Positions 1,622 through 11,989 of a stretch of 11,989 nt of DNA are shown piece after piece. The position numbers were made by a program, and so were the translations under genes. The stretch is taken from positions 1-11,989 of the forward strand of contig JACQOM010000027.1 in assembly GCA_016202525.1 (NCBI GenBank), given 5' to 3'. The first letter of the stretch is position 1. The number at the start of each line of letters is the position of its first letter. The notes beneath the pieces are model-generated. The model had not been told where the DNA came from and ran no database searches. It saw only the letters and a list, made by a program, of their open reading frames with translations. This DNA is from Chloroflexota bacterium. Its GTDB lineage: Bacteria; Chloroflexota; Dehalococcoidia; Dehalococcoidales; UBA2162.

Positions 1622-2581
1622 ATGGAGAACTCAGTAAAAGCGGCACAAAAGATGACCGAGAAGATAATAGACAACATGGAGAAGGTCATTCTCGGCAAGA
1701 AGGAAGCAATCATCTTGGCCGTAATCGCCTTGACCAGCAAGGGGCATTTGCTTATCGAAGATGCTCCGGGTGTTGGTAAAACCATGCTCGCCCGCAGTCT
1801 GGCTAAGTCCATAGACTGTACATTCAAGCGAATCCAGTTCACTCCTGATATGTTGCCCGGCGATATTACCGGAGTTTCTGTCTACAATCAGAAAACAGCC
1901 GATTTCGAATTCCGCCCCGGTCCAATCATGGCACAAATCGTCCTGGCTGACGAAATCAACCGGGCTACACCCAAGGTTCAATCAGCCCTCCTGGAATGTA
2001 TGGAGGAGGGACAGGTTACCGTGGACGGCGTCACTCATCAAATACCTCCTCCCTTCCACATTTTAGCCACCCAAAATCCAATAGAATATGAAGGGACATT
2101 TCCCCTTCCAGAGACGCAACTGGACAGGTTTATGCTCCGGATATCCCTGGGCTATCCATCTCCAGCCGATGAAATAACCATTATGGAAAACCAACAGTAT
2201 GTTCATCCTATTGAACAACTTGGGCCGGTGGCTAACGCGGATGATGTTTTAATGCTTCAGGAAGCCGTGAAAGCTATTTACGTGGATGATTTAGTAAAGC
2301 AATATATCGTAGCATTAGTAGCCGCAACACGCCACAATCCGCTGATACACCTGGGAGCTTCGCCCCGGGGTGCTTTAGGTCTCTTCAGGACTGCCCAGGC
2401 CAATGCTCTAATTCAGGGACGCGACTTTGTTTTACCGGATGATGTTAAGCTTTTGGCTAAACCGGTCCTGGCTCATCGGATAATAGCCCACTCATCGGAT
2501 TCACAGGATAAGGATGGTAAAATCACAATCGATGAGCTACTGGAAACAGTACCCGTGCCCGGAGCACTTGCCAAGAGGTAA
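1622..2581 (+). CDS. MoxR-family AAA+ ATPase
   Basis: This 319-residue protein is of normal length for the family. Visible motifs are Walker A 'EDAPGVGKT' (46-54), Walker B 'IVLADEINR' (106-114), sensor 1 'ATQNP' (149-153), the arginine-finger region 'ETQLDRF' (164-170) and sensor 2 'GASPRG' (246-250 region). The C-terminal lid domain follows. MoxR ATPases are cytoplasmic, hexameric chaperone-like ATPases that act on VWA or DUF58 partner proteins to activate or assemble other complexes. The start is fixed by GGAGG (1611-1615) six bases before the ATG. The DUF58 gene follows after 59 bases and the membrane transglutaminase-like gene after that, which is the standard order of this conserved set. 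The substrate complex cannot be told from sequence. Confidence 0.97.
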   Translation: MENSVKAAQKMTEKIIDNMEKVILGKKEAIILAVIALTSKGHLLIEDAPGVGKTMLARSLAKSIDCTFKRIQFTPDMLPGDITGVSVYNQKTADFEFRPGPIMAQIVLADEINRATPKVQSALLECMEEGQVTVDGVTHQIPPPFHILATQNPIEYEGTFPLPETQLDRFMLRISLGYPSPADEITIMENQQYVHPIEQLGPVANADDVLMLQEAVKAIYVDDLVKQYIVALVAATRHNPLIHLGASPRGALGLFRTAQANALIQGRDFVLPDDVKLLAKPVLAHRIIAHSSDSQDKDGKITIDELLETVPVPGALAKR

Positions 2582-2640
2582 AACGAACCCGCTCCTGGCG
2601 ACTTTTCTCTATAAAATAAAAACCTACCGGAAATCAAACC

Positions 2641-3867
2641 ATGAAAATTCGGACTATTATTTTTATTCTGCTCCCTCTTCTCCTACTTCTGGCTCTAGCT
2701 GAGGGCCTGGTACTGGTATTGAGACTCTCTATCCTCCTGGCGCTGGTGCTTTTAATCAGCTATTTGTGGGTGCTGTTCGGGCTGCGCGGCATCAGGATTC
2801 AAACTAGCCAACCACCGGACTACTGCCAGGTTGGTGAACGCTTTGAAAAAGAGGTAACGTTATTCAACCAGAGCAAGTTACCCAAACTATTGCTTAAAGC
2901 GGCTGAGAATACCGATATACCAGGATATCACAACATGGCGGTATTGAATCTGCCCCCGGGAGGCTCTTACCACTGGCAGACTGATGTCCATTGCCGGCGC
3001 CGGGGCCAATACAGCATGGGCTCGGTTACCGTCACCACCACCGACCCATTCGGCCTTTTCTCCCGACAACGAGACTTGGGACAGCCATACCCTATCCTAA
3101 TCTACCCGGCAACGCTGCCACTACCCTTCTTCGAATCATCGCCTCTCAGCGTCCTGGGTTATAACTCCGGCTACCGGTCATTCAGTCAAATTAGTCCCAA
3201 TGCCTCCAGTGTACGCGAATACACCACTGGTGACAGTCTTAACCATATCCACTGGCGCAGTACCGCTCATGCAGGCAATCTAATGGTTAAAATGTTCGAT
3301 ACCGACCACTCTCATAGCGGGTCGAAAAGTGTCTGGGTTATCATCGATATGCAGCAGTCTCTTCAACTCGGTGAAGGTGATGAGACCACGGAAGAGTATG
3401 TTATAACCATTGCCGCTTCGCTCATAAAAAAATATATCGATAGCGGCATGCAGGTGGGACTGACGGCTTCAGGCGACCGACCTTACTTCTTCCCGCCCGA
3501 GAGGGGAGAGCAACACCTGCGGCGTCTGATGGAAACGCTAGCCCTGATGAAAGCAACGGGGCAAATACCGGTCGGCCAGCTGATTTCAAGCCAGATGGAG
3601 CACTTTAACAGCAATTCTATTGCCATTGTTATCACTCCCGCAGACAGTAAAGAGATGATAGCCTCTATCCGCCAGCTAAAGGGCCGGGACAACCTGGCGG
3701 TGTCTATCCTACTCGAACCAGCCAGCTTCGGCGGTCCCGCCAGCCAGCTCAACACCGCACACAACCTTAGCGCCAACGGCATCCAGGTCTATACCATCAG
3801 AAAAGGAGACGAAATAGCCAGAGCTCTGGACAACAGAGTCCCTTCCCTGCATACGAGATATATTTGA
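2641..3867 (+). CDS. DUF58-domain membrane protein, MoxR partner
   Basis: This 408-residue protein opens with two closely spaced hydrophobic helices (about 5-20 and 27-47), which anchor it in the membrane. A beta-rich region follows, with the typical 'RRRGQYSMGSVTVTTTDPFG' block (119-138). The DUF58 hallmark is at 191-220 ('VREYTTGDSLNHIHWRSTAH' onward, with the D-x2-N-x-IHW-x-STA pattern). Residues 231-390 look like a VWA-type alpha/beta domain ('VWVIIDMQQS', 'IAIVITP'). DUF58 proteins are regular partners of MoxR ATPases, and the upstream MoxR gene supports this role. The ribosome-binding site is weak (GGAAA at 2629-2633), so translation may depend partly on the upstream gene. Its stop overlaps the ribosome-binding site of the next gene. 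The biochemical activity of DUF58 proteins is not established. Confidence 0.94.
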   Translation: MKIRTIIFILLPLLLLLALAEGLVLVLRLSILLALVLLISYLWVLFGLRGIRIQTSQPPDYCQVGERFEKEVTLFNQSKLPKLLLKAAENTDIPGYHNMAVLNLPPGGSYHWQTDVHCRRRGQYSMGSVTVTTTDPFGLFSRQRDLGQPYPILIYPATLPLPFFESSPLSVLGYNSGYRSFSQISPNASSVREYTTGDSLNHIHWRSTAHAGNLMVKMFDTDHSHSGSKSVWVIIDMQQSLQLGEGDETTEEYVITIAASLIKKYIDSGMQVGLTASGDRPYFFPPERGEQHLRRLMETLALMKATGQIPVGQLISSQMEHFNSNSIAIVITPADSKEMIASIRQLKGRDNLAVSILLEPASFGGPASQLNTAHNLSANGIQVYTIRKGDEIARALDNRVPSLHTRYI

Positions 3868-3883
3868 GGTATAGTCAGATTTG
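3866..3883 (+). promoter_or_regulatory. Ribosome-binding site supporting a TTG start of the transglutaminase-like gene
   Basis: GAGGT (3866-3870) overlaps the DUF58 stop codon (TGA 3865-3867) and sits 10 bases before TTG at 3881. An in-frame TAG at 3872-3874 blocks any earlier start. No in-frame ATG occurs until well inside the first part of the protein (about residue 39), where it would remove the N-terminal cytoplasmic segment. TTG is therefore the best start. Confidence 0.6.
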
Positions 3884-6355
3884 CATAGAAATCGGAAAGA
3901 AAACAGACTCATAGTTTATTTGGCCGGAATAACCCGCAGATACCGGCTATTGCCACCGTGGCTCAGGTTCTGGCTGGGCAGCGGGCCGGAGTGGATGAGT
4001 GTCTTACTCGTTTTTCTGACTCTGGCTATCGCGGTACGTTCTGTCGAGCAAGCCCAATGGATAATACCGCAACCATCACTGACAATGGTCCTCGGCCTGG
4101 CTGTTTTGGCCGGCTGGCTACTGGTTAAGAGCCGTCTACCTGATGCCATAACATTTTCCATCATGATAGTCCTGGGAGTCGTCATTACGATGTGGCAAAC
4201 AGCCAGTCTCGTACCCCCACCACACACCGTACCGGGCTCCAATCACCTGTTATCCATTTTGAAGTCCTGGTGGCAGGCAATAAGTCTGACCAAACCCAGC
4301 GAGGGGACTATCCATTTCGCCGTATTTCTGGTCTTCCTCGACTGGATAGTGGGCCTTATTTCGACCTGGTTTATCTTACGGAAACAGAATGCATGGATGA
4401 CTGTTTTTCTCGGCGCTACCATTCTTCTGGTCAACCTCGCCAATCTGTCTGAACAGTACTATTATTTCTTCCTCATCTACTTCTTAGCATCGATGCTATC
4501 GATTGGACTGACAAACCTGTCCCGGGAATACAGCCAATTCCAGAAATATGGCTCCATCTATCCTAAACATGGCATGGTCTACTTTACCGCTTCAGTAATT
4601 ATTATCAGCCTACTGACCATTCCCGGTGCCTGGTTCACACCTGAAATCCAGGTTAAGCCGCTGGAAACCGTAACCGAAGGCGCAATACCCTGGGCAAAAA
4701 GTGCCGAAACTTACTGGCTAAATCTCTTCGCTGCCGTGCCCGGAAAATGGGATATTATCAGAGGCAGAGACCAGAAAAAACTAACTTTCAGCGATAATAT
4801 CAACTACAGTAACGAGATACAATTCATCATTACCGCCGAGCGTCCTTCCTACTGGCGCACCAGAAGGTATGATACTTACTACTCATGGGGATGGACGAGC
4901 AACACTGTGGCCAACCACCTACTCAAGCCGGAAACACCTATCACTGAAACCAGGGCATCGCCGAAACGTCAGGAGATGACCTATACCGTGGAAACAAAAC
5001 TAAAAACAGATGTCTTGTTGACTGCCGGCGAATTTGTATCTACCAACATTCCGGTTTTGCTGGAGACTGTGGCCGCTACACCCGGAGCCAGCCAATCTGC
5101 CTTTCCCGCAGACAACTCGCCTTCGACAAATGAAACCTTGCCTGCCGATTCGGGACAAGTTCTACCGCCGGTAAATACTCTGCCCGAACTAAATAATAAG
5201 ACTAAAGAGCCACTGGCAAGCGCATCACCAGACAGAGTCACCGATGGTGCCGTGTCAACGGAACAGAACAATAAAATAACCACAGATGGAAAAGGTGAAG
5301 TACATGGTAACGCCGGAGACATTGTTGCCATCATTGCGCCACAGCTACTCAAACCGAACCAGCGCTATATACTGACTACCAGCACCCTTAATGCTACGCC
5401 CGATGAACTATCTCAAGCCGGCGAGAACTATGCTCCACGGATTATCGATTACTATCTGCAATTACCAGACAGCCTCCCGGAGCGTGTCACACAATTCACT
5501 AAAGAACTTACCCAGGGAGCCAAAACGGCCTATGATAAAGCAATAATAATCAAACGCTTCCTTAACAGGTTTAAATATAATGAAGCGGTGAAACCTGCTC
5601 CGGCAGGGGCCGACCCTGTAGACTATTTTATCTTCAAGCAGCAAGAAGGCGACTGTGTCAACTTCGCCTCAACCATGGCCGTCATGCTCCGCTCGGTAGG
5701 CGTACCCACCCGTCTCAATACCGGTTATCTCCACGGCAAATTAGATAAGGATACCGGCACACTTATCGTAAGAGCCCGGGATTATCATGCCTGGCCGGAG
5801 GCCTACTTCCCCGGCTACGGTTGGGTAGAATTCGAAGCGACCACCAGGCTAGAAAACCGGATAAACGCCGACGAAGAAATAAACGCCGACCCTAGAATTT
5901 CTATTTTTGATTTTCGAGAAGAAGACGCTCCATCCGGCCCCTCAGGCGCTGCCTCGGGTGATAGCAGTTTCTCCAGACAGTTAGGGCAAAGCTCACCTTT
6001 CCCCATAATCAGTATCCAGATATTAGCGATACTGGCTGTAGTAATACTCCTTTATCGCTCGATACAGAGATTTACCGGAGCTGACAACGCCTTCAATGTC
6101 TATGCCAGAATGAGCTGGCTGGCTTCACTAGTCAAATCCGGACCCGACCCTCACGAGACACCCCTGGAATACCGCACCAGGTTGACAGCGGTTATTCCGG
6201 CACAGGCTCAAGCTATCGACGATATCGCCCAGGCTTACATACAGAGCCGGTTCAGCCCCAGAAAGACATTATTCCTGCTACAGGAAATAAAGCTGCAACA
6301 GTCCTGGCGTGATGTCTACCGTGCCCTGCTCAAGCGCCTGCTACATCTGGGCTGA
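3881..6355 (+). CDS. Multi-pass membrane transglutaminase-like protein (TgpA/DUF3488 type with C-terminal DUF4129-like region)
   Basis: An 824-residue protein starts at TTG 3881. Its N-terminal third is a bundle of about six or seven hydrophobic helices (roughly 38-53, 66-82, 88-108, 145-163, 171-188, 192-210, 232-250). A long external region follows, with a low-complexity Ser/Thr/Pro/Asn-rich linker at ~395-475. The transglutaminase core has 'GDCVNFASTMAVMLRSVGVPT' around Cys592, 'RDYHAWPEAYF' around His636 and 'GWVEFEATT' with Glu652, giving a probable Cys-His-Glu triad. One more helix (706-726) leads to a cytoplasmic tail with 'ETPLEYRTRL' (759-768), like DUF4129. The family acts on the outer face of the membrane as a protease- or transglutaminase-like enzyme; the substrate is unknown. 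It is the third gene of the MoxR-DUF58 set and starts 13 bases after the DUF58 stop. An 18-base unit is partly duplicated at 5861-5890. Confidence 0.93.
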   Translation: MHRNRKENRLIVYLAGITRRYRLLPPWLRFWLGSGPEWMSVLLVFLTLAIAVRSVEQAQWIIPQPSLTMVLGLAVLAGWLLVKSRLPDAITFSIMIVLGVVITMWQTASLVPPPHTVPGSNHLLSILKSWWQAISLTKPSEGTIHFAVFLVFLDWIVGLISTWFILRKQNAWMTVFLGATILLVNLANLSEQYYYFFLIYFLASMLSIGLTNLSREYSQFQKYGSIYPKHGMVYFTASVIIISLLTIPGAWFTPEIQVKPLETVTEGAIPWAKSAETYWLNLFAAVPGKWDIIRGRDQKKLTFSDNINYSNEIQFIITAERPSYWRTRRYDTYYSWGWTSNTVANHLLKPETPITETRASPKRQEMTYTVETKLKTDVLLTAGEFVSTNIPVLLETVAATPGASQSAFPADNSPSTNETLPADSGQVLPPVNTLPELNNKTKEPLASASPDRVTDGAVSTEQNNKITTDGKGEVHGNAGDIVAIIAPQLLKPNQRYILTTSTLNATPDELSQAGENYAPRIIDYYLQLPDSLPERVTQFTKELTQGAKTAYDKAIIIKRFLNRFKYNEAVKPAPAGADPVDYFIFKQQEGDCVNFASTMAVMLRSVGVPTRLNTGYLHGKLDKDTGTLIVRARDYHAWPEAYFPGYGWVEFEATTRLENRINADEEINADPRISIFDFREEDAPSGPSGAASGDSSFSRQLGQSSPFPIISIQILAILAVVILLYRSIQRFTGADNAFNVYARMSWLASLVKSGPDPHETPLEYRTRLTAVIPAQAQAIDDIAQAYIQSRFSPRKTLFLLQEIKLQQSWRDVYRALLKRLLHLG
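5861..5890 (+). repeat. Short tandem duplication inside the transglutaminase-like gene
   Basis: The 12-mer ATAAACGCCGAC occurs at 5861-5872 and again at 5879-5890 with GAAGAA between. This is one and two-thirds copies of an 18-base unit. It is in frame and gives INADEEINAD in the linker between the catalytic domain and the last membrane helix, which probably tolerates length change. Confidence 0.85.
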
Positions 6356-6384: not shown

Positions 6385-6414
6385 TTGACACTGTGCATCA
6401 TTTTCCGCTAGAAT
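6385..6414 (+). promoter_or_regulatory. Near-consensus sigma70 promoter of the TrpF-like/MptG-like operon
   Basis: A perfect -35 TTGACA (6385-6390) is followed after 18 bases by TAGAAT (6409-6414, 5 of 6 to TATAAT). Transcription would begin near 6421, about 30 bases before the TTG start at 6452. It is the strongest promoter-like sequence in the window. It sits in the largest gap (96 bases) between the transglutaminase-like gene and the following six genes, and marks these as a separate transcription unit. No clear operator was recognised around it. Confidence 0.72.
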
Positions 6415-6440
6415 TCAGCCAGTTTCACACTCAATGGTTC

Positions 6441-6454
6441 AAGGAGTCGCTTTG
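6441..6454 (+). promoter_or_regulatory. Ribosome-binding site that favours a TTG start for the TrpF-like gene
   Basis: AAGGAG at 6441-6446 lies five bases before TTG at 6452. The in-frame ATG at 6434 has no purine-rich sequence before it and would place this AAGGAG inside the coding region. TTG 6452 also puts the first beta strand ('VKIKICGIT') at the usual distance from the N-terminus for TrpF. Confidence 0.65.
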
Positions 6455-7156
6455 TCCACTCGAAAAAACGTCAAGATAAAAATCTGTGGCATCACCACTG
6501 TTGAAGACGCTCGTCTCGCTGCCGAGGCCGGCGCCGACTACATCGGTGTCATTATCGAAATCGATTACTCGCCGCGCCGCCTGAGTGTGGAACAGGCACG
6601 CCCGATTTGCCAGCAGTCGACCCTACCGGTAGTCACCCTGGTCTTCAACTGGTCAGCGCAACAGATACAGAAAATGGTATCCACTTTGCATCCTCATGCG
6701 GTGCAACTCCTGGGACAAGAAACCCCATCCCTGGTCAAGAAGCTGAAGAGCCTGGTTTCCTGCGACCTGTGGAAATCCATCCATCTTCCACCACTTGGCC
6801 TGGGAGAAATCAATATCACTGAATACCAGGACAGGATAGATTCCCTGATTGATGCCGGTATCGATGCCATTGTTATCGATACTGTAGCCAGTTCCCCGCA
6901 GGGTAACCAGCGCTACGGCGGAACCGGACAGGTTAGCAACTGGGATATTGCCCGCAAGCTGGTTGAGACTACTTCCGTGCCGACTTTCCTCGCCGGTGGC
7001 ATCAATCCGCAGAATGTCCAGTCCGCCATCGAACTGGTCCACCCATACGGCATCGACCTGTGCAGCGGGGTAGAACACACTCCCGGACATAAAGACGCCG
7101 AGAAGCTACACAAGCTAATGCTGGCTATAAATAGAGTTGCTCCGGTAAAAAGATAA
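6452..7156 (+). CDS. trpF: Phosphoribosylanthranilate isomerase-like protein (TrpF family)
   Basis: From TTG 6452 the protein has 234 residues (240 if ATG 6434 is used). It is a TIM-barrel protein with the TrpF order of motifs: 'KICGIT' with the catalytic-type Cys12, 'SPRRLS' (40-45), 'HAVQLLGQE' (82-90), 'DAIVIDT' with the catalytic-type Asp143, 'YGGTG' (155-159), 'FLAGGINPQNV' (179-189) and 'SGVEHTPGHKD' (205-215). TrpF converts N-(5'-phosphoribosyl)anthranilate to its carboxyphenylamino-deoxyribulose phosphate by an Amadori rearrangement, in the cytoplasm. Both key residues are kept, so isomerase chemistry is likely. The usual VQLHG reads VQLLG. No other trp gene is nearby. Instead it leads an operon with an MptG homologue, and the next gene starts three bases after its stop. 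It may be the cell's ordinary tryptophan enzyme or a paralogue acting on another phosphoriboside. Confidence 0.88.
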   Translation: MSTRKNVKIKICGITTVEDARLAAEAGADYIGVIIEIDYSPRRLSVEQARPICQQSTLPVVTLVFNWSAQQIQKMVSTLHPHAVQLLGQETPSLVKKLKSLVSCDLWKSIHLPPLGLGEINITEYQDRIDSLIDAGIDAIVIDTVASSPQGNQRYGGTGQVSNWDIARKLVETTSVPTFLAGGINPQNVQSAIELVHPYGIDLCSGVEHTPGHKDAEKLHKLMLAINRVAPVKR

Positions 7157-7159
7157 CAT

Positions 7160-8188
7160 ATGAAAGCAGCCGTACTATATGGTGAGAACGACCTCCGTTA
7201 TCAGGAGGTGGAGACGCCGCACGCTCTGCCCGGGGAAGTGGTCGTCCAGATAAAAGCCTGCGGAATATGCACCACCGATATCAAGATTCTGTCCGGTGAG
7301 AGCACACCCCGGAATTTACCGACCATTCTGGGACATGAAGTCGCCGGGCTGGTACACGAAGTCGGCGCCGGCGTTAAGGGATTAACCACAGGCCAGAGGG
7401 TTGCCGTGTACCCCATAGCCTCATGCGGAGAATGTTTTTTCTGCCTCAGAGGGCGTCATAGCCTCTGCCTCCATGAATTCGGACTGGCACACGGCGCCGA
7501 CGGAGGTTTCGCTGAATATGTCCGCATTCCCAAAACTCTGGTGAACCTGGGAGGTATCTTGCCTATTAAGAATTCCCTCCCCATGGAGCTGGCGGCCATG
7601 ACCGAACCCCTTAGTTGCTGTCTCAGTGCCTTCCGCTCCGCCGGAGTTTCTAAAGGCGACTGGGTTGCCATCATCGGCGCTGGCCCTATGGGACTGCTCC
7701 ACCTGCTGACGGCTAAAGCAAGGGACACGCGTACTATCGTTATCGACGTCATTACGGAGCGCCTGGATAAAGCGCGCGAGCTGGGAGCAGAGAAGGTCAT
7801 CGATGCCAGCAAGACTGACCCTGTTCAGGCAGTACGTTCCATTACCGGGATTGGCGCCGACCTGGTCATTGCCGCATTGGGGTCGACCGAAGTCATGGAA
7901 AAATATATGCCCATGGTACGTAATGCAGGAACATTCAATATCTTTGGCGGCGCGCCAAAGGGTTCCCGCCTGACCATAGACCCCAGATGGCTGCACTACG
8001 GCGAGATTATACTCACCGGCACCTTCGGGTCTTCACTGCCGGATTTCAAGCAGGCGCTCCGCCTAATCTCCACTGGAAAAGCGCCTGTAGAGAAAATCAT
8101 TTCCCACCGGGTCGGACTGGACAAGCTGCTCGATGCGGTGCAACAGACACGGGAACATAATTTATTGAAGGCGGTCGTCCTCTTCTAA
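7160..8188 (+). CDS. Zinc-dependent medium-chain alcohol/polyol dehydrogenase
   Basis: This 342-residue protein is of normal length for a medium-chain dehydrogenase, close in style to sorbitol and threonine dehydrogenases. The catalytic zinc ligands are likely Cys37 ('CGICTTD'), His59-Glu60 ('LGHEVAG') and perhaps Glu149 ('TEPLSCC'). The structural zinc site is complete: Cys89, Cys92, Cys95 and Cys103 ('CGECFFCLRGRHSLC'). The Rossmann domain has 'GAGPMG' (173-178), and Asp196 ends strand beta-2 ('IVIDV'), which favours NAD(H) over NADP(H). It should interconvert a secondary alcohol and a ketone in a small polar substrate. It starts three bases after the TrpF-like stop without a clear ribosome-binding site, suggesting translational coupling. 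The substrate is unknown; the operon context suggests a sugar-like or aryl-polyol intermediate. Confidence 0.93.
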   Translation: MKAAVLYGENDLRYQEVETPHALPGEVVVQIKACGICTTDIKILSGESTPRNLPTILGHEVAGLVHEVGAGVKGLTTGQRVAVYPIASCGECFFCLRGRHSLCLHEFGLAHGADGGFAEYVRIPKTLVNLGGILPIKNSLPMELAAMTEPLSCCLSAFRSAGVSKGDWVAIIGAGPMGLLHLLTAKARDTRTIVIDVITERLDKARELGAEKVIDASKTDPVQAVRSITGIGADLVIAALGSTEVMEKYMPMVRNAGTFNIFGGAPKGSRLTIDPRWLHYGEIILTGTFGSSLPDFKQALRLISTGKAPVEKIISHRVGLDKLLDAVQQTREHNLLKAVVLF

Positions 8189-8217
8189 CGAGAGCTGGGT
8201 ATAAGGAGACAACTGAA

Positions 8218-9024
8218 ATGACAGTAGGCAAAATAAACCGCATGAACCGCATTTTAAACCCGACCACTGGCAAAGGACTTATTATCGCCGTCGACCATGG
8301 CATGGCACTTGGCCCAACGACAGGCCTGGTCGACATCGCCAAGACTATCCGCACTCTTTCCGCCACCGGCAAAGTAGATGCCTGGTTAATAACTAAAGGA
8401 ATACTGACCACCTGCTTCGAGCCTGACGGCCGGCAGGGCATAATCCTGCGAGCCAGCGGCGCCGCCACCATCGCCGGTGAAGACCTCACAAATGAAGGAC
8501 TGACCACCAGCGTGGACATGGCACTTCGCCTCGGTGCCGATGCCCTGGCTACCACCGCTTTTATCGGCTCGCCCAATGAGCATGAGACATTAATGAATAT
8601 GGCTTACCTGGCTGACGAATGCCACCAGTATGACCTGCCTTTACTCGGTGTGCTGGGTGCAGGTAAGACACTGGAAGATAAAATGCTCGACCCCCAGTAC
8701 CTGGCACTGGGAGCACGCGTCGCCGTCGAGCATGGGGCCGATATGGTCAAGACATACTATACAACCCAGGACTTCAACCGGGTTATCGCAGGCTGTCCGG
8801 TACCGGTGATGATTGCCGGCGGGCCCAAGTGCGATACTGACCTGGACACTCTCAACATGATTAACGGTGCTTTAAAGGGCGGCGCCCGTGGTATTGTCAT
8901 GGGACGCAACATCTGGCAAAGTGACCGCCCGTCAGAGCTTCTGGATATCGTCTGGCGCATGATTCACCAGGGACTGAGCATCGAAGAAGCCGGCGAGGCG
9001 TTGAATACCAGAACAAGGAGATAA
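8218..9024 (+). CDS. Class I aldolase of the DhnA/FbaB/LsrF family (possible ADH synthase-like)
   Basis: This 268-residue TIM-barrel protein opens with 'KGLIIAVDHGMALGPTTGL' (19-37), the Asp-His-Gly signature of archaeal-type class I fructose-bisphosphate aldolases, 2-amino-3,7-dideoxy-D-threo-hept-6-ulosonate (ADH) synthases and LsrF thiolases. Lys178 in 'HGADMVKTYYT' is the likely Schiff-base lysine. 'PVPVMIAGGPKCDTD' (194-208) and 'GARGIVMGRNIWQS' (222-235) form the phosphate-binding end. It should make or break a C-C bond in a sugar phosphate or keto compound. I cannot tell aldolase, ADH synthase and thiolase apart from sequence. AAGGAG (8203-8208) nine bases before the ATG fixes the start. 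It lies 29 bases after the dehydrogenase and four bases before the MptG-like gene. No dehydroquinate synthase II gene is alongside, which would be expected for the archaeal aromatic route. Confidence 0.9.
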   Translation: MTVGKINRMNRILNPTTGKGLIIAVDHGMALGPTTGLVDIAKTIRTLSATGKVDAWLITKGILTTCFEPDGRQGIILRASGAATIAGEDLTNEGLTTSVDMALRLGADALATTAFIGSPNEHETLMNMAYLADECHQYDLPLLGVLGAGKTLEDKMLDPQYLALGARVAVEHGADMVKTYYTTQDFNRVIAGCPVPVMIAGGPKCDTDLDTLNMINGALKGGARGIVMGRNIWQSDRPSELLDIVWRMIHQGLSIEEAGEALNTRTRR

Positions 9025-9028
9025 CGAT

Positions 9029-10015
9029 ATGAATGAAATTAGAATTGCTTTTCCTTCACGTCTGCATCTGGGACTTATCGACCTTAACGGAGAAATCGGG
9101 CGTATCGATGGCGGTACGGGCATTACCCTCGAAGACCCTCAAACCGTGATTTATGCCAAGAAAAGCAGCCGTCTGGAGGTTGAATATCCGCCCGACCCGG
9201 CGGTAGCCAAGCGTGCCTATGAGGGAGCCCAGGCGGTAATAAAACGTTATGACCTACCGCCAGCTAAAATAGTTATCGAAGAACGGCCCTTAGTCCATGT
9301 CGGCCTGGGCAGCGGCACACAACTGATGGTGGGAGTGGCTGAGGTACTCTGCCATCTGGCAGGACACCCGGTAAGCGCGGCTGAGTTAGGCTCGGTAGTG
9401 AACCGCGGCGGCACATCGGGCATCGGAGTTGCCAGCATTCAACATGGAGGGTTCATCCTCGATGGCGGCCATAAATTCCGTGCCGACGGCGTCGCCAACA
9501 GTAAGAGCGTATATACCCCCTCTTCCGCCGTAATGGGTCTGATGCCGCCGCCGGTACTGGCGCACTATGACTTCCCCGACTGGGACATCTTAATCTGCAT
9601 CCCCACCGGTGAACAAACGGCCGGTATCCATGAGGTCCAGATATTTAAAGTCGTTTGTCCCGTGCCGCTGGACGAAGTTAAGACAATCTGCCACCTGATA
9701 CTGCTCAAGATGCTGCCGGCTATCCTGGAACGCGACCTGGAATCATTCGGCTCTGCCCTCGAGGAAACACAAAAACACGGTTTCAAGAAGTTCGAATTTC
9801 GTGCCCAATCACCTAACATCTTACAATGCAAGGGTTTTCTGAAACAGAATGGCGGCATCGGCGTCGGCATGAGCAGTTGGGGAGCAGCCATCTTTGCTTT
9901 CGGTGAAGACCTGTCCGACCTTGAGAAGAAAGCACGCCGCTTTCTGGATAAGAACATGGGCGGCACCTGTTTCATTACTCACGCCAATAACATCGGATTA
10001 AAGGTGCTGGATTAA
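9029..10015 (+). CDS. Beta-ribofuranosylaminobenzene 5'-phosphate synthase-like protein (MptG family, GHMP-kinase fold)
   Basis: This 328-residue protein matches the beta-RFAP synthase pattern along its length: 'FPSRLHLGLIDLNGEIGRID' (8-27) followed by 'GGTGI', 'HVGLGSGTQLMVGVAEVL' (90-107), 'RGGTSGIGVASIQHGGFILD' (126-145), 'FPDWDILICIPTG' (182-194), 'LLKMLPAILERDLESFGSAL' (225-244) and 'GGIGVGMSSWGAAIF' (275-289). Known MptG enzymes join PRPP to 4-aminobenzoate (or 4-hydroxybenzoate) with loss of CO2, giving a C-riboside: the first committed step of tetrahydromethanopterin synthesis. Related enzymes form the C-glycosidic bond of pyrazole C-nucleosides (ForT/PyfQ). The ATG follows AAGGAG (9015-9020) by eight bases, inside the end of the aldolase gene. 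No other methanopterin genes are visible, so the acceptor acid here is unknown. The family call is firm; the exact reaction is inferred. Confidence 0.9.
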   Translation: MNEIRIAFPSRLHLGLIDLNGEIGRIDGGTGITLEDPQTVIYAKKSSRLEVEYPPDPAVAKRAYEGAQAVIKRYDLPPAKIVIEERPLVHVGLGSGTQLMVGVAEVLCHLAGHPVSAAELGSVVNRGGTSGIGVASIQHGGFILDGGHKFRADGVANSKSVYTPSSAVMGLMPPPVLAHYDFPDWDILICIPTGEQTAGIHEVQIFKVVCPVPLDEVKTICHLILLKMLPAILERDLESFGSALEETQKHGFKKFEFRAQSPNILQCKGFLKQNGGIGVGMSSWGAAIFAFGEDLSDLEKKARRFLDKNMGGTCFITHANNIGLKVLD

Positions 10016-10033
10016 TACTACCACCAGACACAA

Positions 10034-10047
10034 TTAATCCCGATTAA
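10034..10047. repeat. Small inverted repeat between the MptG-like and ligase genes
   Basis: TTAATC (10034-10039) and GATTAA (10042-10047) form a 6-bp inverted repeat with a two-base centre. It lies in the 66-base gap that is the only sizeable break inside the operon. It is AT-rich and has no following T-run, so it is not a terminator. It could be an operator half-site pair or chance. Confidence 0.35.
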
Positions 10048-10081
10048 CCGTATGGCCCAATCTGCTTCACGATGAGGGATT

Positions 10082-11731
10082 ATGGCTAAGCCAACACGGT
10101 ACACCCGCCAAGAAATTGACAGACTGGTCAAGAATGGAGTCTGGCAGACTACTATCTCCAGCTTGTGGGATAGAAATGCGGAACAGCACCCCCGGCAAAA
10201 AGCCATCGCCGACCTGAATCAAACATATACCTGGGCAGAGGCAAAGACCTGGATAGACCGGGTGGCCCTCGGCCTTACCAAAATCGGCATCGAGCGTGAC
10301 GAGACGCTGGTAGTCCAGTTGCCGAATAGCGTGGAACTCCATCTGTTACGAGTAGCCTGTGAGAAAGCCGGCGTACTTTGTGTTCCCGTATTGAGCAATA
10401 TGCGGGAAAGTGAGATAAAGTACATCTCGACCTATACCGGTGCAGCGGCACTGGTCATCACCAGAGAGTTCCGTGGTTTCAATTATGTCAACATGACCAA
10501 CAACATCCGTCCTGAGCTACCCGAACTCAGGCATGTGCTTATCGCTGGTAGCGAAGATGACAAAAGTGGAATCCATATCGACAGTATGGCGCAAAAGCCT
10601 CTTGAAAAACACTACAAGCCGGAATATCTGGAACAACGACGCTACCGGCCGGATGAAGTCTCCACAGTCCTCCTCACCAGCGGCACGACCGGTTCCCCGA
10701 AACTGGTCGAGTACCCGGCGGGTGCCGGCACCAACGGCGGCCAGTACTTAGCCGATGCCCTGGGCCTAACTGAAAATGACATCGTCGCCGCTATTTCTCC
10801 CGCTTCACGTGGCCCCAATGTCGCCGTTTATTATTCAGCACCTCAGATAGCCGCCAGCATAGTTATGGTGCCATGGCTCGGTGCCAGCGAAGCTCTGCGG
10901 GCAATCGAACAAAAAAGGGTTACCGTCGCCTGCCTCGTGCCGACCCAACTGGCAATGATGCTGGCAGAAATCGACAAGCAGGCTTATGACTTAAGTTCCG
11001 TGCGCATCTGGTTGTGTGCCGGCTCTCAGTTATCCCCGTCTCTCGCCTCAACCGTAGAGAAAAAAATGGGCGGAGTTGTTATCAGCCAGTACGGTGCCGT
11101 CGACTTCGGCGCCATCACCATTTCCCGACCGGAAGATTCTTTTGCCATCAGGGCATTTACCGTCGGCAAGCCCCGGCTCGGGGTGACGGTAAAAATAACC
11201 GACGATAGCGGTCAGGAGACCGGACAAGGCACAGTAGGTGAAGTGCTGGCAAAAGGACCAAATTCCGCATCGGGATACTACCGGGATGCCAAAGCCACAC
11301 AAGAGACCTGGACTAAAGACGGATGGTTTGCCACCGGAGACCTGGGCAAACTGGATGAGGCTGGAAACCTGACAATCGTCGGCCGCAAGAAGGATGTCAT
11401 CATACGGGGCGGTCAGAACATTTATCCCAGTGAATTGGAGGGCCTGTTGATTACTCACCCGAGTATTCGCAGCGCCGCCATCGTTGCCATGCCGGATAGT
11501 GTGATGGGAGAAAAAGCCTGCGCCTACATTGTACTGAAACAAAAGAAAACGCTAACACTGGAAGATTTAGCCTCATTTCTGAAAAAGAAAAATATCGCCC
11601 CGTTCAAGATACCGGAAAGGATAGAGATAATAGATAAGCTGCCAACAATATCTGACGGGCAGAAAGTAGACAAGATGGAATTAGTTCAAGACCTAATGCT
11701 GAAACTAAAGCCGGAGGAGACCAGACGGTGA
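10082..11731 (+). CDS. AMP-dependent ligase (ANL superfamily), EntE/DhbE-like aryl or acyl acid activating enzyme
   Basis: This 549-residue protein has the full ANL architecture. The adenylate-binding loop is 'TVLLTSGTTGSPK' (195-207). The A5 region is 'ISQYGAVDFG' (334-343). The A7/A8 hinge region has 'GWFATGDLGKLD' (414-425) and 'GRKKDVIIRGGQNIYPSELE' (434-453). The C-terminal lysine motif is 'DGQKVDK' (525-531), with Lys528 the likely catalytic residue. These enzymes activate a carboxylate as acyl-AMP and usually pass it to CoA or a carrier protein. The N-terminal 'RYTRQEIDRLVKNGVW' and the C-terminal 'KVDK' recall 2,3-dihydroxybenzoate-AMP ligases, which would suit an aromatic acid. The segment after the P-loop ('LVEYPAGAGTNGG') lacks the common TH motif. 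The start has GAGGG (10074-10078) at an unusually short three-base spacing. It lies 66 bases after the MptG-like gene and overlaps the next gene by four bases. Confidence 0.93.
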   Translation: MAKPTRYTRQEIDRLVKNGVWQTTISSLWDRNAEQHPRQKAIADLNQTYTWAEAKTWIDRVALGLTKIGIERDETLVVQLPNSVELHLLRVACEKAGVLCVPVLSNMRESEIKYISTYTGAAALVITREFRGFNYVNMTNNIRPELPELRHVLIAGSEDDKSGIHIDSMAQKPLEKHYKPEYLEQRRYRPDEVSTVLLTSGTTGSPKLVEYPAGAGTNGGQYLADALGLTENDIVAAISPASRGPNVAVYYSAPQIAASIVMVPWLGASEALRAIEQKRVTVACLVPTQLAMMLAEIDKQAYDLSSVRIWLCAGSQLSPSLASTVEKKMGGVVISQYGAVDFGAITISRPEDSFAIRAFTVGKPRLGVTVKITDDSGQETGQGTVGEVLAKGPNSASGYYRDAKATQETWTKDGWFATGDLGKLDEAGNLTIVGRKKDVIIRGGQNIYPSELEGLLITHPSIRSAAIVAMPDSVMGEKACAYIVLKQKKTLTLEDLASFLKKKNIAPFKIPERIEIIDKLPTISDGQKVDKMELVQDLMLKLKPEETRR

Positions 11732-11989
11732 AAATAGACATCTTCGCTCATATTCTACCCCCAAAATACAAAGAGGCTCTTTACCGTGCCAATCCACGCG
11801 GCTTTCATTTGCAAAATGTCATCGAGACGCTACCGACACTCTTCAACCTGAAGGACAGATTCCGGATAATGGACAAATTCGAGGGGCTACAGCACGTGGT
11901 AACTTTATCCACACCAGCTATCGAACACTTTACCAACCCCCAGCAGGCGGTAGATTTCGCCAGGATGGCTAATGATGAGATGGCAGAAC
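11728..11989 (+). CDS. Amidohydrolase-2 (ACMSD-like) family protein, 3' end cut by the window
   Basis: A GTG start at 11728 overlaps the ligase stop (GTGA, four bases) and is preceded by GGAGG (11713-11717) at ten bases. The frame stays open to the window edge (87 residues). The N-terminus 'MKIDIFAHILPPKYKEAL' matches the amidohydrolase-2 family, which includes aminocarboxymuconate-semialdehyde decarboxylase, gamma-resorcylate decarboxylase and 4-oxalomesaconate hydratase. The family's first metal motif is normally His-x-His (or Glu-x-His in some decarboxylases); here it reads Phe-Ala-His, so one ligand is missing. Family members decarboxylate or hydrate aromatic and ring-opened acids, which would fit an operon handling aryl acids. 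Only about a quarter of the usual ~300 residues is visible, so the rest of the metal site cannot be checked. Confidence 0.78.
   Translation, partial: MKIDIFAHILPPKYKEALYRANPRGFHLQNVIETLPTLFNLKDRFRIMDKFEGLQHVVTLSTPAIEHFTNPQQAVDFARMANDEMAE

Follow-up and report, generated by a model that had tools for sequence, protein, structure and literature searches.

An operon in a Chloroflexota genome combines a homolog of MptG, the beta-ribofuranosylaminobenzene 5'-phosphate (RFAP) synthase of methanopterin biosynthesis, with a TrpF-like isomerase, a zinc-dependent dehydrogenase and an LsrF-like aldolase. It occupies positions 6,385–11,989 of a stretch of 11,989 nucleotides (contig JACQOM010000027.1 of assembly GCA_016202525.1), the whole of which is hereafter called the window. 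MptG, the TrpF-like isomerase and the zinc dehydrogenase constitute a conserved core, which is complemented by a variable fourth gene encoding either an LsrF-like aldolase or a metallo-beta-lactamase (MBL)-fold hydrolase, and this core recurs across phyla, in genomes of Chloroflexi, Deltaproteobacteria and Gemmatimonadetes. The interpretation that we favor, to which we assign a probability of about 0.42 on the strength of sequence comparison, is that these genes encode a dedicated, undescribed aryl C-riboside pathway, in which oxidative cleavage would release dihydroxyacetone phosphate (DHAP) and an arylacetyl unit.

GTDB species genomes were scanned with an alignment of MptG relatives, which yielded 541 relatives, and conservation was judged from the best 80 loci. 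Whole-genome tests were conducted on 22 genomes picked from among these loci, 16 non-poribacterial and six poribacterial. The window's genome was represented by G001, a groundwater Chloroflexi metagenome-assembled genome (MAG) that contains locus L001 and whose MptG-like protein is 95% identical to that of the window. A same-strand TrpF-like gene adjoins the MptG gene in 22 of the 80 loci, and the operon thus exceeds what chance clustering would give. The order TrpF-like isomerase, dehydrogenase, aldolase and MptG is found in the window, L001 and L003 (Deltaproteobacteria), while MptG comes first, followed by the isomerase, dehydrogenase and aldolase, in L002 and L005 (Deltaproteobacteria). 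MptG, isomerase and dehydrogenase are aligned in this order in L006 (Gemmatimonadetes) and in L056, L057 and L066 (Caldilineales or Caldilineaceae), and the MptG–TrpF pair occurs in 14 Caldilineaceae loci. The initial annotation of this DNA had proposed searching for conservation of the gene order; the order proved to be the same in L001 and in L128, a locus of genome G576 with an MptG-like protein 78% identical to that of the window, and the core recurs across phyla in two orders. No TrpF-like neighbor of MptG was found in 58 of the 80 loci, which comprise 30 archaeal and 26 poribacterial loci, L046, where the contig ends inside the MptG gene, and L004. In the genome of the last (G004), the isomerase–dehydrogenase–aldolase trio and MptG are on different contigs, and directly upstream of the trio lies a gene (L101:10019–11233, minus strand) for a divergent MptG-like GHMP protein of 404 residues, which is extended at its N-terminus and scores 87 bits against the beta-RFAP synthase model NF040726 (cut-off 328). 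The stand-alone MptG gene of G004 is directly preceded by a thiolase-family gene (L004:8788–9978). The operon is rare within classes: it was found in 1 of 393 sampled genomes and, in a second survey, in 1 of 155, each time only in the seed genome, a pattern suggestive of repeated loss or of spread by horizontal transfer. The operon of G576 was met in a family search only, not in these class-wide surveys.

The MptG-like gene (9029–10015, plus strand) encodes a predicted aryl C-riboside 5-phosphate synthase. Its product scores 343.6 bits against the equivalog model NF040726, and the proteins of L002 (360), L005 (356), L006 (366) and L060 (336) also exceed the cut-off of 328, which that of L010 just misses (324). 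Asp18 and Arg25 are present in all 82 aligned proteins and were matched by motif and numbering to D19 and R26 of MTH0830, reported to be needed for activity (PMC6787355). In this alignment, the 27 proteins grouped as poribacterial include one Caldilineaceae protein, that of L046, which is cut by the contig end. The nearest solved relative of the MptG-like protein is ForT (126 bits), and the positions aligned with E211, T138, K263 and L24 of ForT are conserved in MptG-like proteins. Ser21 and Gln266 of ForT, described as ligands of the second carboxylate (PMC9832568), correspond to His13 and Glu256, which are kept in 24 of 24 proteins of the bacterial core group and in 31 of 31 archaeal MptG copies. 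Given that the catalytic residues are present and that the positions of the ForT ligands are as in archaeal MptG, a benzoate-type acceptor is our best guess for this enzyme; RFAP synthase itself is defined by its use of p-aminobenzoate or 4-hydroxybenzoate together with phosphoribosyl pyrophosphate. Two tandem MptG genes were seen in a euryarchaeotal MAG (L061:8791–9747 and 9998–10963).

The TrpF-like gene (6434–7156, plus strand; PF00697 PRAI, 110.4 bits) probably starts at TTG 6452, which has AAGGAG 5 nucleotides upstream, and the L001 frame opens at the matching TTG. Its product resembles TrpF, the phosphoribosylanthranilate isomerase (PRAI), in the family fold model and in the conserved Cys, Asp and Arg positions. 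Cys18, Arg48 and Asp149 are kept in 29 of 29 TrpF-like proteins; we take the Cys and Asp to be the catalytic residues of the family and the Arg to bind the carboxylate of anthranilate. The TrpF-like proteins differ from TrpF in forming their own clade, apart from the trp-type TrpF proteins of the same and related genomes (tree support 100/100), and in having invariant residues of their own: Trp113, Ile190, Pro87 and Leu209 occur in 29 of 29 TrpF-like proteins versus 0 of 24 trp-type ones. Arg160 is found in 26 of the 29, and the window protein remains below the NCBIfam PRAI equivalog cut-offs. Poribacterial L145–L147 were placed with the operon clade by the tree, and the residue counts use that grouping.

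A second PRAI-family gene is present in 15 of the 16 non-poribacterial genomes and adjoins trpC in all seven genomes checked (G002–G006, G018 and G010). In G001, the operon copy is the sole PRAI-family gene found, within the limits of an incomplete MAG, and the trp cluster (L111:1443–5390) consists of trpD, trpC, trpB and trpA with no trpF between trpC and trpB. In the inspected relatives without the operon, trpF lies inside the trp cluster in four of four cases, and a TrpF with 31–37% identity was found in 8 of 12 family genomes. No trpC was seen in the operon-bearing G576, again within the limits of an incomplete MAG. In the window's lineage, the TrpF-like enzyme may well take part in tryptophan synthesis too, and outside this lineage it would have another main job. 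The initial annotation had considered that the TrpF-like protein might be the sole tryptophan enzyme of its kind, with no link to the MptG-like gene; the first half of this idea fits G001, with its single PRAI gene and trp cluster lacking trpF, and is contradicted by the second PRAI gene of the other 15 genomes, while the supposed lack of a link is not borne out.

The zinc-dependent medium-chain dehydrogenase (7160–8188, plus strand; PF08240 ADH_N and PF00107 ADH_zinc_N) has an ortholog (46–94% identity) in all 16 non-poribacterial genomes, located away from MptG in seven Caldilineaceae (e.g., by approximately 45 kb in G009). The next gene of the window (8218–9024, plus strand; PF01791 DeoC/LacD) encodes an LsrF-like, DhnA-type aldolase or thiolase. 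Its best NCBIfam match is the model of the LsrF thiolase of autoinducer-2 breakdown, NF006081 (260.6 bits for the window and 263–265 for L005 and L002; cut-off 297), other models scoring lower, and LsrF is also its closest PDB sequence (186.1 bits). The window aldolase keeps the lysine aligned with the KTYY motif of LsrF, which is Ala in 4p2v and which we presume to be the Schiff-base lysine. The differences from LsrF are that the aldolase stays under the model cut-off, that we saw no further lsr genes in its neighborhood, and that nearer LsrF-type copies, recognized by motif, are located elsewhere in G003 and G004. LsrF is described as converting a phosphorylated five-carbon substrate and coenzyme A (CoA) into DHAP and acetyl-CoA (PMC8016206).

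Among the 22 genomes, orthologs of the LsrF-like aldolase (59–95%) are confined to G001–G005, relatives elsewhere reaching no more than 40% identity. In Caldilineaceae and L006, the dehydrogenase gene is followed instead by one for a PF13483 MBL-fold protein, whose ortholog (at least 60%) is present in 10 of the 22 genomes and adjoins the dehydrogenase in eight of these 10. None of the 10 holds an aldolase ortholog, and G001 and G004 have only approximately 30% relatives of the MBL-fold protein. The fourth gene in the 16 non-poribacterial genomes is thus the aldolase in five, the MBL-fold hydrolase in 10 and neither in one. That these genes keep company across genomes, and that one stands in for another at the same site, speaks for a single pathway.

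On this basis we propose the following route. The MptG-like enzyme, as its family membership and conserved residues suggest, would join an aromatic carboxylic acid to phosphoribosyl pyrophosphate with loss of CO2 and pyrophosphate to form an aryl C-riboside 5-phosphate. Next, the ribofuranose would be opened by the TrpF-like enzyme through an Amadori-type rearrangement to 1-aryl-1-deoxyribulose 5-phosphate. This would be the TrpF reaction transposed to carbon, with an electron-donating ring substituent (NH2 or OH) in place of the anilinic nitrogen and an intermediate of the quinone-methide type. The succession of MptG and TrpF would be chemically natural, and the steps after ring opening are less certain. 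The zinc dehydrogenase may oxidize a side-chain hydroxyl to give an aryl analogue of the LsrF substrate, and LsrF-like thiolysis with CoA could release DHAP and arylacetyl-CoA; in the other genomes, the MBL-fold hydrolase might make the cut, with DHAP and arylacetate as products. A vinylogous Amadori opening of a C-riboside, if it takes place, would be a new reaction for the TrpF fold. It is rather doubtful, and put forward tentatively, that the whole represents a new type of pathway, in which decarboxylative C-ribosylation, vinylogous Amadori opening and oxidation precede the release of a triose phosphate, for which an LsrF-type thiolase and an unrelated hydrolase would be alternative catalysts, and aryl-COOH is converted to aryl-CH2-CO.

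The MptG and TrpF-like genes are also widespread in Poribacteria. In one poribacterial class, MptG was found in 78 of 82 genomes and a TrpF-like match of at least 130 bits in 76; both genes occur in 73 genomes, and neither occurs, at those thresholds, in G581. Because both are near-universal, this co-occurrence test had little power. All four poribacterial TrpF-like proteins placed in the tree group with the operon clade, and in the regions fetched we saw no trp genes around the poribacterial TrpF-like gene. The pair may therefore matter in Poribacteria too, without linkage. Of the 16 poribacterial regions retrieved, 10 have a small cupin gene beside the TrpF-like gene (e.g., L169:10448–10807). 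A PF04199 cyclase-family gene precedes MptG in some Poribacteria (L012:9301–13721, L018 and L027), and in L012, MptG is followed by genes for a nitroreductase, a dehydrogenase and an iron-sulfur protein.

Several observations weigh against the oxidative route. The substrate and product of the proposed pathway are themselves predicted from sequence, and the bacterial core group differs from archaeal MptG at other positions, such as Ser158 and Trp284; the acceptor may thus not be p-aminobenzoate. As described above, no PRAI-family gene other than the operon copy was found in G001, and Poribacteria keep MptG and the TrpF-like gene apart, without a close dehydrogenase or aldolase ortholog (no dehydrogenase ortholog at E 1e-50 in four of the six poribacterial genomes, and 37–39% identity in the other two). 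The mutual exclusion of the fourth genes rests on few independent lineages, and G018 has neither of them at the thresholds used. The aldolases of three lineages stay below the LsrF cut-off of 297, at 260–265 bits, and LsrF-type homologs also catalyze plain aldol chemistry. The closest solved relatives of the MBL-fold protein are uncharacterized hydrolases, and we know of no MBL-fold enzyme that cleaves C–C bonds. Finally, reduction by the dehydrogenase would suit the first three steps equally well.

This last point leads to an alternative that we consider somewhat unlikely, namely that the first two steps are as proposed and that the ketone is then reduced by the dehydrogenase, the resulting 1-aryl-1-deoxyribitol 5-phosphate entering a cofactor of methanopterin-like or other type and the aldolase or hydrolase having its task elsewhere, e.g., in supplying the aryl acid. 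An aryl-ribitol phosphate is the side chain of the methanopterin type, and the dehydrogenase shares its superfamily with the ribulose 5-phosphate reductase TarJ, a kinship that favors reduction. Genomes that lack the aldolase ortholog still have the dehydrogenase together with MptG and the TrpF-like protein (the dehydrogenase in 16 of 16 genomes versus the aldolase in 5 of 16), and the near-universal presence of MptG and the TrpF-like gene in the poribacterial class is what might be expected of a cofactor route. In addition, approximately seven proteins of methanopterin synthesis were described as unassigned in 2011 (PMC3087415). These points are countered by the 30 archaeal loci without a TrpF-like neighbor, by the lack of the methanopterin one-carbon (C1) marker Mch in the 22 genomes, and by the LsrF-like and MBL-fold genes, which would be left without a clear role. 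We prefer the oxidative route to the reductive one because it explains the fourth gene.

The search for Mch gave a match in 0 of 22 genomes, compared with 3 of 14 known genomes in the control; fae, ftr, fhc, mptA and folate genes were not searched. Since Mch is absent from all 22 genomes, methanopterin C1 metabolism is unlikely, and we rejected it as the use of the module. The module shares with methanopterin biosynthesis the synthase family, the NF040726 match and the conserved catalytic positions, and it differs from that system in its Mch-free genomes and in the TrpF-like, dehydrogenase and LsrF-like neighbors, none of which adjoins MptG in the 30 archaeal loci. Another MptG relative from organisms without methanopterin is the haloarchaeal HVO_2628; it is reported to be 26–31% identical to archaeal RFAP synthases, and the authors of that report doubt that it is an RFAP synthase (PMC8305020).

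It is improbable that the product is a C-nucleoside-type natural product, such as formycin or pyrazofurin, made from the riboside of the MptG relative, with the other genes tailoring the aglycone. In the formycin and pyrazofurin pathways, an MptG relative of the ForT type is described as catalyzing the decarboxylative C-ribosylation of an aromatic acid (PMC9832568), and the kinship to ForT noted above fits this idea. However, Ser21 and Gln266 of ForT are His and Glu in the bacterial MptG-like proteins, and a TrpF-like isomerase follows here, which, if it opens the ribose, would destroy the ribofuranose and thus makes a C-nucleoside end product unlikely. The core also recurs with few other genes, unlike what we would expect of typical natural-product clusters. 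Very unlikely, lastly, is that ordinary genes were merely placed together, with the TrpF-like enzyme making tryptophan and the aldolase serving sugar metabolism: the single PRAI gene and the trpF-less trp cluster of G001, the one PRAI gene of G011, which has an indole-3-glycerol phosphate synthase gene, and the rarity of the operon within classes are compatible with this view, but the second PRAI gene of 15 genomes, beside trpC in the seven checked, the recurrence of the same neighbors in several phyla and two orders, and G576, an incomplete MAG that has the operon and shows no trpC, speak against it.

The initial annotation knew of no described pathway with this gene set and thought of a methanopterin-like cofactor or a C-nucleoside-like metabolite. 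No such pathway was found in the literature searched. Of the two suggested products, the C-nucleoside is improbable for the reasons given above, and the methanopterin-like cofactor is the product of the reductive alternative, with a use in C1 metabolism being unlikely. No paper naming both ribofuranosylaminobenzene and phosphoribosylanthranilate isomerase was found in a search that excluded most subscription papers and all bioRxiv preprints; the papers naming ribofuranosylaminobenzene do not have such a gene set in the title or the start of the abstract, and combining the methanopterin literature with aminophenyl and ribulose returned nothing.

The lineage of the window supplements the core with a ligase, an amidohydrolase and a protein of the NDP-forming CoA-ligase alpha type. 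The AMP-forming acid ligase gene (10082–11731, plus strand; PF00501 AMP-binding, 199.8 bits) has aryl-acid AMP ligases as its nearest PDB relatives (salicylate-AMP ligase, 247 bits), and its product does not reach the EntE-type dihydroxybenzoate-AMP ligase equivalog (298.2 vs 723.6 bits). The sixth frame (11728–11989, plus strand) is cut by the window end and alone gave no family match in profile searches; its full homolog in L001 (335 amino acids) belongs to PF04909 Amidohydro_2, as does the complete homolog in L128. L001 has the window's gene order and continues into the complete Amidohydro_2 gene and the NDP-forming CoA-ligase alpha-type gene, and L128 has the same seven genes. Apart from the window, only these two closest relatives were seen to carry the ligase and amidohydrolase in the operon; hence, of the shared pathway that the initial annotation had drawn across six genes, the core linking the C-riboside synthase, isomerase, dehydrogenase and aldolase stands, and the last two are local additions. 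Its family calls agree with the Pfam and NCBIfam profile scores, and its coordinates agree with ours in placing six genes on the same strand with gaps of 3, 29, 4, 66 and −4 nucleotides. The genes upstream of the operon in L128 are quite unlike those of the window, a change that fixes the operon's left boundary. Upstream in the window, on the same strand, lie genes for a MoxR-type ATPase, a DUF58 protein and a transglutaminase-core protein (1622–6355), which are kept in L001 and not in L128. The near-consensus promoter proposed for the operon (TTGACA-18-TAGAAT, 6385–6414, plus strand) does match at 11 of 12 positions, but it is doubtful: a 4 kb scan found three such sites versus 2.9 expected in shuffles, and part of the −10 hexamer is missing in L001. 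We accordingly rejected it as evidence for the operon.

If the favored pathway is correct, the C-riboside synthase reaction, which is known from methanopterin and formycin, would start a further bacterial pathway in genomes where no Mch was found. The automatic labels "RFAP synthase" and "phosphoribosylanthranilate isomerase" may mislead on pathway in these bacteria. The module also points to a family of candidate enzymes for the opening of an aryl C-riboside, which the unassigned part of methanopterin synthesis requires as well, and the same isomerase chemistry would, if true, suggest how the ribose of methanopterin could be opened.

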